From: Nitrosomicrobium frigidum (SeqCode)
GTDB taxonomy: Archaea > Thermoproteota > Nitrososphaeria > Nitrososphaerales > Nitrososphaeraceae
NCBI GenBank assembly: GCA_023251115.1
Contig: JAHEZK010000003.1
Location: 1-64,000 of the forward strand
Direction of reading: 5' to 3'
DNA: 64,000 nucleotides
Positions 7,562 through 59,426 of this stretch are shown one piece after another (positions within the stretch are counted from its first letter, which is position 1; the number at the start of each line of letters is the position of its first letter). Position numbers and translations under genes: made by a program. Below the pieces are notes generated by a model. The model ran no database searches, had not been told where the DNA came from, and worked only from the letters and a program-made list of their open reading frames with translations.

Positions 7562-9661
7562 GTGACCAATGAAAATTTAAGTAAAAATTCTGTGGATGAG
7601 CGTATTTCTACACTAGAGAACAGTGACAAAGTTAAAGAACGAAATGATACTGTACCCCCAAATCAAATTCAACGTACAAAAAAAGTTGAGGAAGATTTTT
7701 TCAAAGATATTATACTCAAATCAATTCCAAAAGAATCGCAGATTACAAACATACGGTTTGAGGGGCCGTATGTTGCGCTATATACACTAAATCCTAAATT
7801 TTCCTTGACCGAATTGACCTACTATCTTTCCTCTCTGTCAAAAAATTTTAAAAAAAGATTTGTTGTAAGAACCGATACATCGATCAGACTGTCTGAAGAA
7901 GAAACAAGAACAGCTGTCATCAAGATGTTACCGAATGAGGTTACAATATCTGCTGTATTTTGCGATGACGCCACCGGCGAAGTAGTTCTAGAGGTAAACC
8001 GTCCAGAGTCAATAGATGCCAATATGGTAATCAATATAGCTCAAACCACGGGTTGGATAGCACATACATTAAGGTCTCCTCATATCCAGTCAAGTAGCAT
8101 GAACATGATACACTCTACACAGAAGAGCTCCACAAAGGAAAGAAGTCTTTTCCTACAATCGCTAGGCAAAAGAATCTTTAGACCTCCACTTGTTCTCCAA
8201 AGTAATGATTCTAGTCTAAATTTTACAAATCATTCAAGTGAAAAAAGATCAGAGTTCACTGAATTCAAATCGAAGTTGAGAAACAAGGAGGAAATAGCCA
8301 TTTTCTGTCTTGGCGGGGTTAAACAAGTAGGTAGATCATGTTTCATTGTCGTAACTTCCGAAAGCAAGATAATGCTTGATTGTGGCATTAATCCTGGAGA
8401 ACCATTAGGTATATCCGCTTATCCACGATTGGACTGGTTTAATTTTGACCTTGATGAAATAGATGCAGTAATCATAAGCCACGCTCACATAGATCATCAA
8501 GGATTTTTACCAGCACTATTCAAATTTGGATACAAGGGGCCAGTTTATTGTACCGAACCAACTCTCCCTTTAATGACACTTCTCCAGTACGATTCAGTCA
8601 AGATATCCAAAAGCAATGGCACTTTTTTGCCCTATGAAACAAGAGATGTAAACGAAGTCATTAAGCATTGTATAACCTTACCTTATGGGAAACCAACAGA
8701 TATTTCACCAGATGTCACAATAACTTTCAATAATGCTGGGCATATAATGGGAAGCGCTACAGTACACATCAATGTATTTGGAACTCATAATATTCTTTAT
8801 TCTGGTGATTACAAATATGCTAGGACACAATTACTTGATAGTGCCGTTTCAGTTTACCCTAGAGTCGAGACACTAATTACAGAAAGTACTTACGGTAATT
8901 CTGCTGACATAATGCCGGATCAGTCCGTAGTATACAAAACCTTCACTGATGCTATCAACAAGACAATGTCGGCGGGAGGAAAGGTATTGATTCCAGTTCC
9001 AGCCGTTGGAAGGGCGCAAGAAATAATGTTGGTCCTAGATAAGGAAATGAGAGCAGGACGTTTAATGGAGGCACCAGTTTTCATTGAAGGTATGATATCT
9101 GAAGCAAGTGCCATACACATGTCCTATGCACACTACCTTGGTTTTGATGTTAGAAAATCAGTGTCAAACGGCGTTAATCCATTTCAATCAGAATACTTCA
9201 CGGTCATTAATGGATATGAAAGAAGGGAAGATGTATTTAACGACGAAAATCCAAGCGTCATTATGGCCACCTCCGGTATGTTAGAAGGGGGTCCATCAGT
9301 GGAATACTTTAAGAAAATCGCACCAGACAAGAGAAACAAAATAATATTTGTTTCTTATCAGATAAATGGCACACTGGGAAGACGGGTCATAGATGGAGGT
9401 TTGATGGAGATAAGCATGATGGATGAAAAAGGCAAGGTTAAAGTTATCCCAATAAAATGTGAGAGTCAAAAAATCGATGGATTTAGTGGCCATAGTGATT
9501 TCAATCAGATCATGAATTTTACGGCAAGGGTTAAGCCAAAAAGAGTACTTGTTAATCACGGGGAAAGGTCCAAGTCGGAAAATGTAGCCAGCAATATCTT
9601 TTCTAGATTAAAAATAAGATCTGTTGTTCCAGATAACCGAGAAATAATCAAACTCAGATAA
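7562..9661 (+). CDS. aCPSF1/FttA: beta-CASP KH-domain ribonuclease
   Basis: A 699-residue protein with an N-terminal KH-like RNA-binding region (roughly residues 60-200) and a metallo-beta-lactamase/beta-CASP nuclease core. The metal-binding motif is His307-Ala-His-Ile-Asp-His312, and the C-terminal motifs include SGHSDFNQI and VLVNHGE. This is the archaeal CPSF73 homolog, an endo/5'-3' exonuclease that drives transcription termination at U-rich sites. Length and order match the family. It starts with GTG, with a poorly conserved charged N-terminus of about 50 residues. Confidence 0.95.
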   Translation: MTNENLSKNSVDERISTLENSDKVKERNDTVPPNQIQRTKKVEEDFFKDIILKSIPKESQITNIRFEGPYVALYTLNPKFSLTELTYYLSSLSKNFKKRFVVRTDTSIRLSEEETRTAVIKMLPNEVTISAVFCDDATGEVVLEVNRPESIDANMVINIAQTTGWIAHTLRSPHIQSSSMNMIHSTQKSSTKERSLFLQSLGKRIFRPPLVLQSNDSSLNFTNHSSEKRSEFTEFKSKLRNKEEIAIFCLGGVKQVGRSCFIVVTSESKIMLDCGINPGEPLGISAYPRLDWFNFDLDEIDAVIISHAHIDHQGFLPALFKFGYKGPVYCTEPTLPLMTLLQYDSVKISKSNGTFLPYETRDVNEVIKHCITLPYGKPTDISPDVTITFNNAGHIMGSATVHINVFGTHNILYSGDYKYARTQLLDSAVSVYPRVETLITESTYGNSADIMPDQSVVYKTFTDAINKTMSAGGKVLIPVPAVGRAQEIMLVLDKEMRAGRLMEAPVFIEGMISEASAIHMSYAHYLGFDVRKSVSNGVNPFQSEYFTVINGYERREDVFNDENPSVIMATSGMLEGGPSVEYFKKIAPDKRNKIIFVSYQINGTLGRRVIDGGLMEISMMDEKGKVKVIPIKCESQKIDGFSGHSDFNQIMNFTARVKPKRVLVNHGERSKSENVASNIFSRLKIRSVVPDNREIIKLR

Positions 9662-54089: not shown

Positions 54090-54959
54090 ATGTTAGTCCG
54101 TAAAACTAATTTGTTTTCTTCTCTGAAGAATCCAATGTTTTTATTATGCAAAAATGTATCAAGCTATCAAATGAGTCAGCTCAATATAGTTGAAAATAAA
54201 CCAGCTTTATTGATTGACATATTTATTGATGGTAAACCGAATAGGGTATTGGTAATAAGTGATTTACATATAGGTATTACATACTGGTTACGCAGTAGTG
54301 ATATCGCCATTGACTGGTATCAAATCATAAAAGATATCGAAACAGAATTAAGAGATATTGTTATCTCAAACAAGGTAAATTCCATTGTGTTACTTGGTGA
54401 CATTAAAAACAACATATTTAAAATGGAAAAACAAGATTGGAATTTAATTCCTAATTTTTTACACTCACTGGCAGAAATTTGTGATGTCTATTTGATCCCC
54501 GGGAATCACGATTCAAGAATAGGATTAATATCTCCTGACAATGTACACTTAATTGGTGTTAAAGGAATGGTATTAGACGATATTCTATTGACACATGGAC
54601 ATACATTTCCATCAGAGCTAAGATCTAATATAAACAAAATAATTATGGGACACATACATCCTACATTTTTTAGAGAGAATAGTATTTTAAGTGGACAGAA
54701 GGTGTGGATCTTTTTGAAAGTACAAAAAGAGGCTATATTTCCAAGTACAAAAGGATCTCTCGATCTAGTATTGTTACCATCATTTAATAGATACGTCTAT
54801 GGGCACGGTAGACCTAGACGAGGGAAAATAAATTCACCTATTTTGAAAAAAATATTAAAAAAAGAAATTATAGATAAATGTTTGATAGTTTCAATAGATG
54901 GAACTATTATTGGAAATGAGAATACTTTAGGTGAAGTGTTTAATCCTGACTTTAATTAA
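54090..54959 (+). CDS. Metallophosphoesterase
   Basis: A 289-residue calcineurin-like enzyme. Motifs are VISDLHIGI (DxH), LLGDIKNN (GDxK variant), GNHDSR and THGHTFPSEL with IMGHIHP. These are found in archaeal YfcE/MPE-type proteins of the DNA-repair or nucleotide phosphodiesterase kind. The frame is open from a TTG at 54051, but the ATG at 54090 is the more likely start. Divergent from the THUMP gene, 34-73 bases away. Confidence 0.85.
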   Translation: MLVRKTNLFSSLKNPMFLLCKNVSSYQMSQLNIVENKPALLIDIFIDGKPNRVLVISDLHIGITYWLRSSDIAIDWYQIIKDIETELRDIVISNKVNSIVLLGDIKNNIFKMEKQDWNLIPNFLHSLAEICDVYLIPGNHDSRIGLISPDNVHLIGVKGMVLDDILLTHGHTFPSELRSNINKIIMGHIHPTFFRENSILSGQKVWIFLKVQKEAIFPSTKGSLDLVLLPSFNRYVYGHGRPRRGKINSPILKKILKKEIIDKCLIVSIDGTIIGNENTLGEVFNPDFN

Positions 54960-57900
54960 TTCGATATTTGGAGAGTGGACTTATTGAGGGCTTATTTTTG
55001 TTTCTCCATTCTAAGCAATGTATGAAAGAGATTGCAGATTCTACTGTCGTAAGCACTGGAATTCCCATTTCAACTGCCTTTCTTCTGATTTGATATTCAT
55101 CATCAAGCATACCGACATACTTTTCAATAGTGGACGTTGATGGAATGTTTATTATAAAATCTATTTTCTTGTTGTAGAGAAGATCTGCAATGTTGGGTTT
55201 TCTTATTGGTTCACTTATCTTGTGTACTTCCTGAACGCTGTTAGTTATTCTACTTTTGATAAATTCAGCAGTGTGTTCTGTTGCCAATAAATTAAATTTC
55301 ATGGAATTTATAAGTGAGATTGCCGAAAGCATTTTTTCTTTATTTTTTTGTCCTCCAATGGTTATTAGGGCCGATCCTGAAAGTGGTAAATTATATCCTG
55401 CTGCTTCGTAGGCCTTTGATAAGGCATCATAAAAACTGTTTCCATGACAGGCTACTTCACCGGTTGATTGCATTTCAACTCCTAATACTATATCAGAACC
55501 TTCCAATTGCATAAATGAAAATTGTGGTACTTTTATTCCAAAACCACTTATTTTTAGCCATGGCTCGTTAAGGTCTTCTGGTAATTTTCCATTGAGAATT
55601 GCTTTAGATGCCAACGAAATTAAATTAATTCCAACTATTTTTGAGACAAATGGCGTGGTTCTTGACGCCCTGACATTTGCCTCAATGACATAAACCTCAT
55701 CATCTTTAACCAAGTACTGGATATTAAGAGGACCTTTTACCTCCAATTTTTTGGCAATCACGTTAGAGTAGTCTACTATTGTATTCATTGTTTGTCTATT
55801 CAGCCTCCAAGGAGGTATGCACATCATGGCATCTCCAGAGTGAATACCTGCATTATCAATGTGTTCAATTAGAGCACCTATGATTACATCTTTACCATTA
55901 CACACCGCATCTACGTCAACCTCGGCAGAATCCTGAAAGAATTTGCTAATTACAATTGGATATTCAGGACTGATTTGAGCTGCCTCATTTATGTACCGAT
56001 CCAATTGTTCTTCATTCCAAATCACCTTCATAGCCGCACCACTCAGCACATATGAAGGCCTTACCAATACAGGGAAACCTACCTTTTGAGAAAATATCTT
56101 TGCTCCACTTAAATCTGTAAATTTATTCCAAGGAGGTTGTTTTATATTTAATGAATCAAGTAACTTGCTAAACTTTTCTCTGTCTTCAGCCATATCAGTA
56201 TGGACGCTATCAGTACCAATAATGTTTACATTTAGTTGTCCTAATTTAGGAACAAGATTATTTGCTGTCTGACCTCCAACACATGTGACTATTCCCTTTG
56301 GTCGCTCTTTTTCATATATATCGAGAATCCTTTCTAGTGATAATTCTTCAAAATATAATCTATCAGATATGTCGTAATCAGTAGACACTGTTTCTGGATT
56401 ACAGTTAATAACTGACACAGATTTTATACCATTATTCTTTAGACCCCAAACCATGTTGACTGTACCCCAATCAAACTCTACACTGCTACCTATTCTGTAT
56501 GGTCCTGCTCCAAGTACTATTACGGAATTTGTCTCTTTCCTAAAAACAATATCATCTTTGTCTCCACCATATGTCAAATACAGGTAATTGGTTTTCGCGG
56601 GCCATTCTGCAGCCAGCGTATCTACCTGCTTTACGACTGGATTGATGCCAAACTTTTGTCTCAATTTTCTTGCACTTGTCTCTCTTAATCCTAAACACTT
56701 GCCTATTTGTAAATCTGAAAATCCATATTTTTTCGCATCTCGCAATAAATTCTCAGAAATCTCAGAAACATCTACCTGGTGTAATTTATCATATAAATCC
56801 ACAATATTTTTGATTTTTTCCAAGAACCATGAATCTATTGAGGAAAGTTTACTAATTCGAGTTACGGGAATTCCCAATCTCATTGCCCTAACAACATCGA
56901 ATAAGATTTCATCACTTGGATACAGCAATTTTTGTTCTACAAGTTCTAATTCTTCCTTTGAATTTTCATCATTTCCAACTAAACCTATTTTTCCGCCATC
57001 GTTCATTCTAATAGCTTTTTGTAGGACTTCCTCAAAGGTTCTACCGATTGCCATTACTTCGCCTACTGACTTCATACTAGTACCAATTCTTCTGTTAACC
57101 AATTCAAATTTCCTGAAATCCCATCTGGGCATTTTTAGCACCACATAATCCAAAGAAGGTTCAAAGCAAGCTGTGGTAGCCTTAGTTATACTATTAACAA
57201 GTTCTGTAAGAGAGTAACCTAGGCCCATTTTAGCTGCCATGTATGCCAATGGATACCCTGTCGCCTTGCTGGCCAAAGCTGAGGACCTTGAAAGCCTTGC
57301 ATTTATTTCTATTGCACTATACGATTCACTTAAGGGATCCAAACCAAACTGAATATTGCATTCTCCGATTATGCCGCAATATTCCACTGCTCTAATGGCT
57401 GCAGAACGTAATCTGTGATATTCTTCATTATTGATAGTCTGCGATGGAGCAATGACAATATTGTCTCCTGTGTGTACCCTCATTCCTAAAACGTTTTCCA
57501 TATTACAAATCGCAATGCTGTTACCTCTTGAGTCTCTCATCATTTCATATTCTATCTGTTTCCAGCTCCCAATATATTGCTCAATCAAGACTTGATTTAC
57601 TAGACTTAAAGAAAGTCCTCGTTGCACTATTTCTTGCAATTCGTATTCGTTATGCGCAACTCCTCCCCCTTTACCACCTAGAGTGTACGCTACCCTTATT
57701 ATTACCGGATATCCTATCTTGCCAGCGACTCCTAGCGCCTCTTCCAAATTATAAGCCGGCGCACTCTCTAGTACTGGAACGTTACTCTTTATCATTGCAA
57801 TTTTAAACTGTTCTCTATCCTCGGTTATCTTTATGCTATTCACGGGAGTTCCCAATACTCGTATCTTGTACTTATCTAGGATCCCATCATCGTGCAAAGA

Positions 57901-58152
57901 TACTCCACAATTTAATGCGGTTTGACCACCAAAACCAAGCATTATTGAATCCGGAAGTTCCTTTTCTATTATTTGTTGTATATAATATCCATTAACTGGT
58001 AACAGATATACCTTATTTGCGAATCTAGTGTCCGTTTGAATAGTAGCTATATTGGGATTTACCAGTACTGTCTTAATTCCTTCTTCGGATAAGGCTTTGA
58101 GGCATTGTGAACCGGAATAGTCAAATTGGCGGTCAGAACTTCTGACATTCAC
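54952..58152 (-). CDS. carB: Carbamoyl-phosphate synthase large subunit, N-terminus disrupted
   Basis: A 1066-residue frame covering nearly all of CarB: two ATP-grasp halves (VLVNPNIATIQTDTRFA, then VINCNPETVSTDYDISDR), the VIGEC-like EYCGIIGECNIQF, and the C-terminal allosteric MGS domain (AEFIKSRIT...). It makes carbamoyl phosphate for arginine and pyrimidines with CarA, which is directly upstream. The annotated GTG start omits the conserved first 20 residues (KKVIVLGSGAIKIGEAGE), which are present in another frame immediately upstream; see the 22-base insertion. Length is otherwise normal. The 3' end overlaps the metallophosphoesterase by eight bases. Confidence 0.9.
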   Translation of the reverse strand: MNVRSSDRQFDYSGSQCLKALSEEGIKTVLVNPNIATIQTDTRFANKVYLLPVNGYYIQQIIEKELPDSIMLGFGGQTALNCGVSLHDDGILDKYKIRVLGTPVNSIKITEDREQFKIAMIKSNVPVLESAPAYNLEEALGVAGKIGYPVIIRVAYTLGGKGGGVAHNEYELQEIVQRGLSLSLVNQVLIEQYIGSWKQIEYEMMRDSRGNSIAICNMENVLGMRVHTGDNIVIAPSQTINNEEYHRLRSAAIRAVEYCGIIGECNIQFGLDPLSESYSAIEINARLSRSSALASKATGYPLAYMAAKMGLGYSLTELVNSITKATTACFEPSLDYVVLKMPRWDFRKFELVNRRIGTSMKSVGEVMAIGRTFEEVLQKAIRMNDGGKIGLVGNDENSKEELELVEQKLLYPSDEILFDVVRAMRLGIPVTRISKLSSIDSWFLEKIKNIVDLYDKLHQVDVSEISENLLRDAKKYGFSDLQIGKCLGLRETSARKLRQKFGINPVVKQVDTLAAEWPAKTNYLYLTYGGDKDDIVFRKETNSVIVLGAGPYRIGSSVEFDWGTVNMVWGLKNNGIKSVSVINCNPETVSTDYDISDRLYFEELSLERILDIYEKERPKGIVTCVGGQTANNLVPKLGQLNVNIIGTDSVHTDMAEDREKFSKLLDSLNIKQPPWNKFTDLSGAKIFSQKVGFPVLVRPSYVLSGAAMKVIWNEEQLDRYINEAAQISPEYPIVISKFFQDSAEVDVDAVCNGKDVIIGALIEHIDNAGIHSGDAMMCIPPWRLNRQTMNTIVDYSNVIAKKLEVKGPLNIQYLVKDDEVYVIEANVRASRTTPFVSKIVGINLISLASKAILNGKLPEDLNEPWLKISGFGIKVPQFSFMQLEGSDIVLGVEMQSTGEVACHGNSFYDALSKAYEAAGYNLPLSGSALITIGGQKNKEKMLSAISLINSMKFNLLATEHTAEFIKSRITNSVQEVHKISEPIRKPNIADLLYNKKIDFIINIPSTSTIEKYVGMLDDEYQIRRKAVEMGIPVLTTVESAISFIHCLEWRNKNKPSISPLSKYRIN
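58126..58147 (-). other. 22-base insertion with a perfect palindrome in the 5' end of carB
   Basis: On the minus strand the conserved GEAGE codons end at 58148 and FDYSGS resumes at 58125. The 22 bases between have no counterpart in CarB. They contain GTCAGAAGTTCTGAC (58132-58146), a perfect palindrome with seven-base arms around one base. The insertion is 3n+1 long. The frame before it also needs one extra base after the ATG at 58212 (AAA to AAAA gives MKTIKK), so the two changes together restore the frame. Confidence 0.85.
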
Positions 58153-58208
58153 CCGCTTCTCCGATTTTTATTGCTCCACTGCCCAATACTATTACTTTCT
58201 TTATAGTT

Positions 58209-59426
58209 TCATTCTTTGGAAAATTTTCCCACCTCCATTTTCTTTACAGATTTGAGTCGACTTTGGTCAGAATTCTTCTGTTCAATAAGGTCTTTAAAGC
58301 TATTGAATATGTGCATACAATCATAAGGGCCGGGAGAAGCTTCAGGATGAAACTGCACTGCAATTATGGGTTTTGATTTATGTTTGATACCTTCTATAGT
58401 ATTGTCATCAGAATTTATATACCAGGCTTTAAATCCTGTTTTGTCCAAAGTATTTGATTTCACCCCATATCCGTGATTCTGGCTCGTAATAAATGTTTGA
58501 TTGGTACTGACATCAGTGCATCCTTTATTCTGACCTCTATGTCCAAACTTCAACTTATACGTATCACCTCCAGCTGCAAGTGCTATAATTTGGTTTCCTA
58601 AACATATGCCCAACATTGGCAATGATGAATCAAACAATTTAAGAGCAGTTTCTATTGTAATATTGCACACTTTCGGATCTCCAGGACCGTTACTTATTAT
58701 GATACCTTTGGGTTTATGAGAAATTATCTCGCTAAATGATATATCCCATGGAACGCGAATAACCCGATAACCCATCCGTAAAATATTACGAATAATGCTA
58801 TATTTCGTACCTGTATCAATTAATACTATTGGTTCTAATGAACGGTATCCATACTCGATAGCCTTGTCAACAGATACTTGGGACATAAAATTAAATCCAT
58901 CATATCTGGTCTTTTTTACGGTATCCAATAGGGCTTTTGTATTTATTTGTTTTTCTGAAACTGAAAGCGCACCATTCATTACTCCCTTTATTCTAATTTT
59001 CTTGGTTAGATCACGTGTATCAATTCCACTAATACCTGGTATTTTTTCATCATAAAGCCATTGATCTAAAGTTTTGTGGCATTCTCTATGATTCGCTACG
59101 TTAGACAATTCGTGAACTATCAGCCCTGAAACTTGAATGTTCTCTGACTCGAAATATTTTGGTAGTCCATACTCATCCTTGATAGATTTACTTGGTACAC
59201 CATAGTTCCCAATAAGCGGATAGGTCATACACAATATTTGTCCTCTATATGATGGATCGGTTAATGTCTCAGTATATCCTACCATGCCTGTATTAAAAAC
59301 AAATTCTCCGCCAACTGTTTTTGGATAGCCAAATCCAGTACCTCGATACGTTGAACCATCTTCTAAAATTATCATCGCGTTAAGGCCTGTGTGATTACCA
59401 TGAATTGTAGGAATTTTGACCCTCAT
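58209..59426 (-). CDS. carA: Carbamoyl-phosphate synthase small subunit
   Basis: A 405-residue glutamine amidotransferase. It has the CarA N-terminal domain (FGYPKTVGGEFVFNTGMVGYTETLTDPSYRGQ) and the class I GATase triad in MLGICLGNQIIA (Cys) and FHPEASPGPYD (His, Glu). It supplies ammonia to CarB. The start at 59426 is supported by an AAATTTAAATC box about 25 bases upstream, giving a 17-residue N-terminal extension before MIILEDG. Its TGA overlaps an ATG (ATGA) that would be the usual carB start. Confidence 0.94.
   Translation of the reverse strand: MRVKIPTIHGNHTGLNAMIILEDGSTYRGTGFGYPKTVGGEFVFNTGMVGYTETLTDPSYRGQILCMTYPLIGNYGVPSKSIKDEYGLPKYFESENIQVSGLIVHELSNVANHRECHKTLDQWLYDEKIPGISGIDTRDLTKKIRIKGVMNGALSVSEKQINTKALLDTVKKTRYDGFNFMSQVSVDKAIEYGYRSLEPIVLIDTGTKYSIIRNILRMGYRVIRVPWDISFSEIISHKPKGIIISNGPGDPKVCNITIETALKLFDSSLPMLGICLGNQIIALAAGGDTYKLKFGHRGQNKGCTDVSTNQTFITSQNHGYGVKSNTLDKTGFKAWYINSDDNTIEGIKHKSKPIIAVQFHPEASPGPYDCMHIFNSFKDLIEQKNSDQSRLKSVKKMEVGKFSKE

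Follow-up and report, generated by a model that had tools for sequence, protein, structure and literature searches.

How carB of Nitrosomicrobium frigidum can encode a complete protein is not apparent from its DNA, in which the reading frame breaks near the 5′ end of the gene. The window analyzed here, a stretch of 64,000 nucleotides, carries carA on its minus strand (58209..59426), and the end of carA overlaps the start of carB. Exon 1 of carB, as we delimit it, is FPKNETIKKVIVLGSGAIKIGEAGE (58148..58222), and exon 2 comprises 1057 codons plus a stop (54952..58125). Between them, at 58126-58147, stand exactly 22 bases, TGTCAGAAGTTCTGACCGCCAA, which contain GTCAGAAGTTCTGAC. If this block is retained, the frame yields ECQKF and then a stop, while excision of the block joins GGT GAA to TTT GAC and restores the frame of GEAGE|FDYSGSQ, with IGEAGEFDYSGSQ as the predicted peptide region across the junction. 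A sequence-only reading had described this minus-strand insertion, built on GTCAGAAGTTCTGAC, exactly; it had also seen that KKVIVLGSGAIKIGEAGE is encoded upstream in another frame and that FDYSGSQ picks up directly past the insert, and its proposed join, GGTGA/ATTTGAC, is correct. That reading had further taken the ATG at 58212 as an in-frame carB start followed by the loss of one base. The frame of this ATG does stop at once (MKL*), as had been noted, but the ATG lies out of frame with carB, inside AAT GAA, and no base is missing after it; carA merely overlaps carB. A copy of GGTCAGAA that had been linked to the insert is indeed present (58265-58272). We treat it as a coincidence because it is absent from the matching stretch of same-genus relatives, for example L024, L026, and L031.

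The insertion is real, and most likely it does not represent damage. Comparison with close relatives, which the sequence-only reading had proposed, found inserts at the same codon boundary that differ in length and sequence. The second carB that it had suggested looking for did not turn up as a full-length copy in this genome, where we found one full-length CarB match and four other family matches of at most 51 bits. The coding sequence upstream of the insert is conserved: among 11 same-genus rows, exon 1 showed 284 synonymous versus 65 non-synonymous pairwise codon differences, and 61 of 62 intron rows share the same GSGAIKIGEAGE, most of the differences being at third positions. In a larger set, GTC replaced an Ile codon of exon 1 in 5 of 86 intron rows. 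When the exons were joined, the TIGR01369 profile matched over positions 1-1052 (1403.2 bits), compared to positions 24-1052 (1363.4 bits) for the unspliced open reading frame.

We propose, at a probability of roughly 0.94, that the 22 bases are an archaeal bulge-helix-bulge (BHB) intron lying within carB on the carAB transcript, predicted to be cut by EndA and joined by RtcB. A tiny intron had been offered by the sequence-only reading as one speculative option among several, and it is the option that our analysis supports. In the proposed pathway, carA and carB would be carried on one transcript, in which GGUG of exon 1 would pair with CGCC of the intron between two 3-nt bulges, the structure being closed on the inside by an intron hairpin and on the outside by a helix between the two exons. 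Cleavage past the second base of either bulge would fall to EndA, the hetero-oligomeric tRNA splicing endonuclease, and ligation of the exons by RtcB would bring back the GEAGE|FDYSGSQ frame and yield full-length CarB. Both cleavage and ligation would take place in the cell, and the predicted intron (58126..58147) would lie in phase 0.

The elements of this structure can be located in the window, all on the minus strand. A motif fit placed the 5′ arm of the 4-bp central helix, GGTG, in exon 1 (58150..58153) and its 3′ arm, CGCC, in the intron (58128..58131), with all four pairs formed and one of them G-U. The helix is flanked by bulges of 3 nt each, AAT at 58147..58149, with the predicted cut between 58148 and 58147, and AAT at 58125..58127, with the predicted cut between 58126 and 58125 (AAU and AAU in the RNA); cuts past the second base of both bulges free exactly 22 nt. 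The inner hairpin, GTCAGAA-G-TTCTGAC (58132..58146), was found by the motif fit and in the predicted fold, which pairs six bases on each side around a 3-nt loop. The outer helix is formed between CGGAG (58159..58163) and TTCCG (58113..58117) and was delineated from covariation, folding, and silent sites. The pairing of GCGG with CCGC around a CAA bulge that had been suggested for an intron was one position off in register; the conserved central helix pairs exon GGYG with intron CGYN (CACC in L018) and is bordered by 3-nt bulges such as AAU.

The predicted fold of a 67-nt segment recovered both the central and the outer helix as well as the intron hairpin and the first 3-nt bulge, with an energy of −19.1 kcal/mol compared to −12.84 ± 2.75 kcal/mol for shuffled sequences (z = −2.28; equaled by 4 of 200 shuffles). 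It gave the second bulge four bases (AAUU) instead of 3 nt, which counts against the intron reading. In the strict form of the motif, hBHBh′, the outer helix directly adjoins the bulge; here an internal loop lies between the two, which likewise counts against the intron reading, and the structure belongs to the relaxed form. A scan of the window for relaxed BHB motifs returned 51 plus-strand and 40 minus-strand hits, compared to 47-59 in three simulated sequences. Strict hits with introns of 16-60 nt numbered five over both strands, one of them exactly at the frame break. Three others were rejected as antisense to long open reading frames, namely the minus-strand hit at 8569 and an overlapping plus-strand pair (39431 and 39432), and a further one lies at 2562. 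Because the loose motif is common by itself, the case for an intron rests on its exact register and on the relatives.

Those relatives provided 73 distinct haplotypes with introns of 20-34 nt, one row of which (L243) was parsed wrongly, with a length of 14 nt. All four central pairs were present in 65 haplotypes and three of four in 7, with exact bulges, a register that was imposed when the haplotypes were parsed. The seven incomplete central helices count against the intron reading, as do the wrongly parsed row and the 4 of 73 haplotypes in which the inner helix has only three contiguous pairs. A complete central helix combined with four or more pairs in the inner helix occurred in 61 of 73 haplotypes versus 8 of 36,500 intron shuffles. 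Among 22 aligned sequences, 31 double-sided compensatory cells were counted versus 10.3 ± 2.2 after shuffling, a count that shared ancestry inflates, and sliding the pairing partners lowered the covariation score from 0.398 in the true register to at most 0.112. Double-sided changes affected five of the six inner pairs and one of the four central pairs but no outer pair; the tally of pairs so affected was 6 versus 4.4 ± 0.7 in shuffled alignments, with 18 of 500 shuffles reaching 6. Covariation is thus weak outside the inner helix, a further point against the intron reading.

The strongest evidence that the structure is under selection came from silent positions in the exons, which are nearly fixed where they are paired in intron carriers and variable in intronless relatives. 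The outer helix CGGAG:CUCCG was complete in 84 of 86 intron rows versus 7 of 45 intronless rows, some of the latter being distant archaea. A comparison restricted to family f9 showed a complete outer helix in 40/40 carriers versus 6/14 non-carriers, and the exon arm read GGCG in 40/40 carriers versus 1/14 non-carriers. Fisher's test on the silent-site contrast gave p = 2e-23, a value that is not a true probability because the rows are related. The loosening of these silent sites where the intron is missing gives a clean view of selection on RNA structure within coding sequence.

The insertion is widely distributed in the class. We built a covariance model from 22 sequences, including that of the window, and searched with strict filters, taking E values of at most 1e-12 as strong matches. 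Of 400 class genomes, 204 gave strong matches, single-contig genomes among them, and these represent 42 of 82 genera. A wider draw from the phylum gave matches in 47 of 398 genomes, every one of them from three families within the same order. Given the strict filters, a missing match is weak evidence of absence. All 86 strong-match loci parsed were intron-bearing (the border of L243 was misplaced by the script), and all 29 weak-match loci parsed from 30 chosen genomes were intronless. One carrier, L261, comes from another order of the class. Searches with the CarB family model agree: the profile match started at position 22-25 or held one stop, as expected from an interruption there, in 23 of 24 other genomes of the same genus or family, and the remaining one (G024) had no full CarB match with this model. 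Named carriers include Nitrososphaeraceae and Nitrosopumilaceae assemblies, and named intronless genomes include Nitrosopelagicus and Nitrosopumilus limneticus. On a CarB tree the family of the window clustered with records of Nitrososphaeraceae and family f9 clustered with those of Nitrosopumilaceae, and we infer these names for the two coded groups. The trees required a minimum of 10 intron changes with 110 rows and 13 with 137 rows. Two loci deserve separate mention. L041, titled Nitrosopumilus sp., sits in the family of the window (f1) beside L196 (genus g2) in the CarB tree and is probably mislabelled. In L176 (G100), a single-contig genome that is 99% complete, carB was matched as two pieces, the first with three stops, which could reflect a sequencing error, decay, or a further interruption.

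The genome encodes the predicted machinery. Two EndA-type proteins align to different halves of a fused EndA model, which fits the alpha2-beta2 type reported for Thaumarchaeota in PMC4090602, and RtcB is encoded as well. Moderate temperature does not preclude BHB cleavage, since the EndA of Ferroplasma is reported to cut minimal BHB substrates at 30 °C (PMC8707768). The same genome also holds a tRNA-Ala (TGC) locus (L226, ~1501-1603) that fits a 29-nt BHB intron, with a four-pair central helix CCTT:GAGG, bulges GCA and AAA, and a six-pair inner helix, and ARAGORN recognizes the tRNA once this candidate intron is removed. With the intron option of ARAGORN left off, 15 different excisions from L226 gave a tRNA, of which we quote the one with the best helices. 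Five other long tRNA loci with solutions (L229-L233) had a poorer fit or competing answers, and L227 (87 nt) fell under the length limit of the tRNA-intron script.

Among the other explanations, all of them improbable, the one that survives best is that EndA cuts the BHB to regulate or degrade the mRNA without productive splicing, to which we give only a few chances in a hundred. EndA has been reported to process one Haloferax mRNA (PMC7714728), a precedent for such a role. With the block retained, all 91 distinct loci examined are interrupted, 52 by a frameshift and 39 by an in-frame stop, and none stays open, so the block must come out for CarB to be read at every one of them. Given this requirement and the single copy of carB here, some ligation would be needed unless CarB is dispensable.

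Programmed translational bypassing, in which the ribosome would leave GAA, skip the hairpin, and land on the triplet that precedes TTT while the RNA stays uncut, is slightly less probable still. Ribosomes bypass a hairpin in gene 60 of phage T4, and carB likewise has a short hairpin within its coding sequence and flanks that join cleanly between codons. For a hop, the landing triplet should match the take-off codon, here GAA or GAG, yet none of the 73 haplotypes has either of these before exon 2, where the triplet always opens with C, T, or A. Nor does bypassing predict a 4-bp exon-intron helix, fixed 3-nt bulges, or a nearly fixed outer helix. We find it just as hard to credit an N-terminally shortened CarB, started past or inside the insert (for instance at GTG 58152) and leaving exon 1 vestigial. 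The ORF finder does open the frame at 58152, and in most genomes of the same family the profile match begins at 22-25, but the conservation of GSGAIKIGEAGE in 61 of 62 intron rows, the completion of the TIGR01369 profile by exon 1, and a structure that pairs exon 1 with the intron all speak against it. A sequencing or assembly error or a private pseudogene, both raised by the sequence-only reading, is very unlikely: the genome is a 1.8-Mb draft in 137 contigs, but strong matches with covariation recur in 204 of 400 genomes, some of them single-contig, and a second full-length carB is absent. A transposon or excision footprint, for which the AATs at the edges could be a 3-bp target duplication, was rejected, as the block covaries as RNA and spans families.

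The start of translation is a difficulty for the intron reading. A Shine-Dalgarno sequence for carB, GGAGGTG, is present at 58230..58236 on the minus strand and is similar in many relatives. In many of these relatives it is followed within a few bases by ATG, TTG, or GTG, at a distance of 25 codons from the exon 1 end. In the window, the alignment of relatives places TTT at this position (58220..58222, minus strand), the putative start, and the carA stop begins 11 nt past the first base of this TTT. The same TTT occurs in all same-genus loci with enough upstream sequence, and in many other relatives the Shine-Dalgarno sequence is followed by CTG, TCG, GCG, ACG, or ATA. TTT as a start codon counts against the intron reading. 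A frameshift fusion of carA to carB was considered as a source of the missing start and rejected because it is not conserved: the carA frame and stop vary among close relatives, and L020 has its carA stop immediately ahead of the carB codon. In L016, L124, L134, and L040, a lysine-rich tail of CarA overlaps the carB start.

We compared start codons with intron presence by counting a start as canonical if an ATG, GTG, or TTG lay 23-27 codons from the exon 1 end and past the last in-frame stop. Over 137 distinct rows, carriers were non-canonical in 65 cases and canonical in 27, and intronless rows were non-canonical in 10 and canonical in 35; the ten non-canonical intronless rows comprise all six distinct intronless rows of genus g21 in family f10, together with L009, L050, L159, and L160. 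The 27 canonical carriers and these ten rows speak against a link between the two traits. Across the 8 independent starred pairs, the two traits were opposite in ~5.3, ran the same way in ~0.1, and showed no difference in ~2.6 (sign test, median p = 0.0625, range 0.0312-0.375), and an earlier tree of 110 rows gave 7 pairs with p = 0.0625. These comparisons, on trees that do not separate gain from loss, are only suggestive that a weak start and the intron evolve together. Such a link may reflect the timing of splicing and translation, carA-carB coupling, or nothing. One possibility, which we regard as doubtful, is that the intron is part of a conserved module that times splicing against translation, with CarB output set by splicing. 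An inefficient non-canonical start (TTT, CTG, TCG, GCG, or ATA) would then keep ribosomes from melting the BHB before EndA has cut it, and several intronless lineages have ATG, TTG, or GTG at the start position instead. If this were true, splicing would control the synthesis of arginine and pyrimidines in many ammonia-oxidising archaea.

Among the matches listed in the accessible literature we found no report of a carB intron; subscription papers and preprints lay outside this scope, and an earlier report is possible. Judged by that literature, carB would be the second archaeal protein gene with mRNA splicing, after cbf5. A second natural host gene, in another lineage and with a biosynthetic role, present once in this genome, would make archaeal pre-mRNA splicing less exceptional and testable in cultured ammonia oxidisers. 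A systematic annotation error is also predicted, in that carB of carriers may be recorded as truncated, as frameshifted, or as a pseudogene.

Compared to known systems, the carB block has the BHB features that we tested (central helix, bulges, and the presence of EndA and RtcB) except for an adjacent outer helix. Archaeal rRNA BHB introns share the endonuclease motif, but numerous ones hold homing endonuclease genes (PMC2738675), for which the carB block is far too short. The putative 12-bp introns of an archaeal virus resemble it as very short blocks in archaeal protein genes, but these blocks keep the frame and their splicing is putative (PMC2738675), whereas carB introns shift the frame or hold a stop. 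Archaeal tRNA introns have the same BHB geometry; in carB the block sits in an mRNA, and coding sequence makes up the outer helix, with an internal loop between this helix and the bulge. The closest counterpart is cbf5, given in PMC2738675 and PMC7714728 ("in one mRNA") as the one archaeal protein gene for which mRNA splicing has been shown. The cbf5 intron count is 0 for Cenarchaeum and Nitrosopumilus in the table of PMC2738675, and cbf5 of the window's genome had no interruption over profile positions 3-322. The two cases differ in gene and lineage and in that cbf5 splicing was shown by cDNA, in Sulfolobales and Desulfurococcales (PMC2738675), while carB splicing is predicted from sequence. 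As described in PMC2738675, cbf5 introns are nonetheless of much the same kind as those of carB: short BHB introns in a protein gene (sizes 16-44, compared to 20-34 in carB), with a predicted cut between the second and third bulge residues, which interrupt the codon of a conserved residue and have been lost in some relatives.
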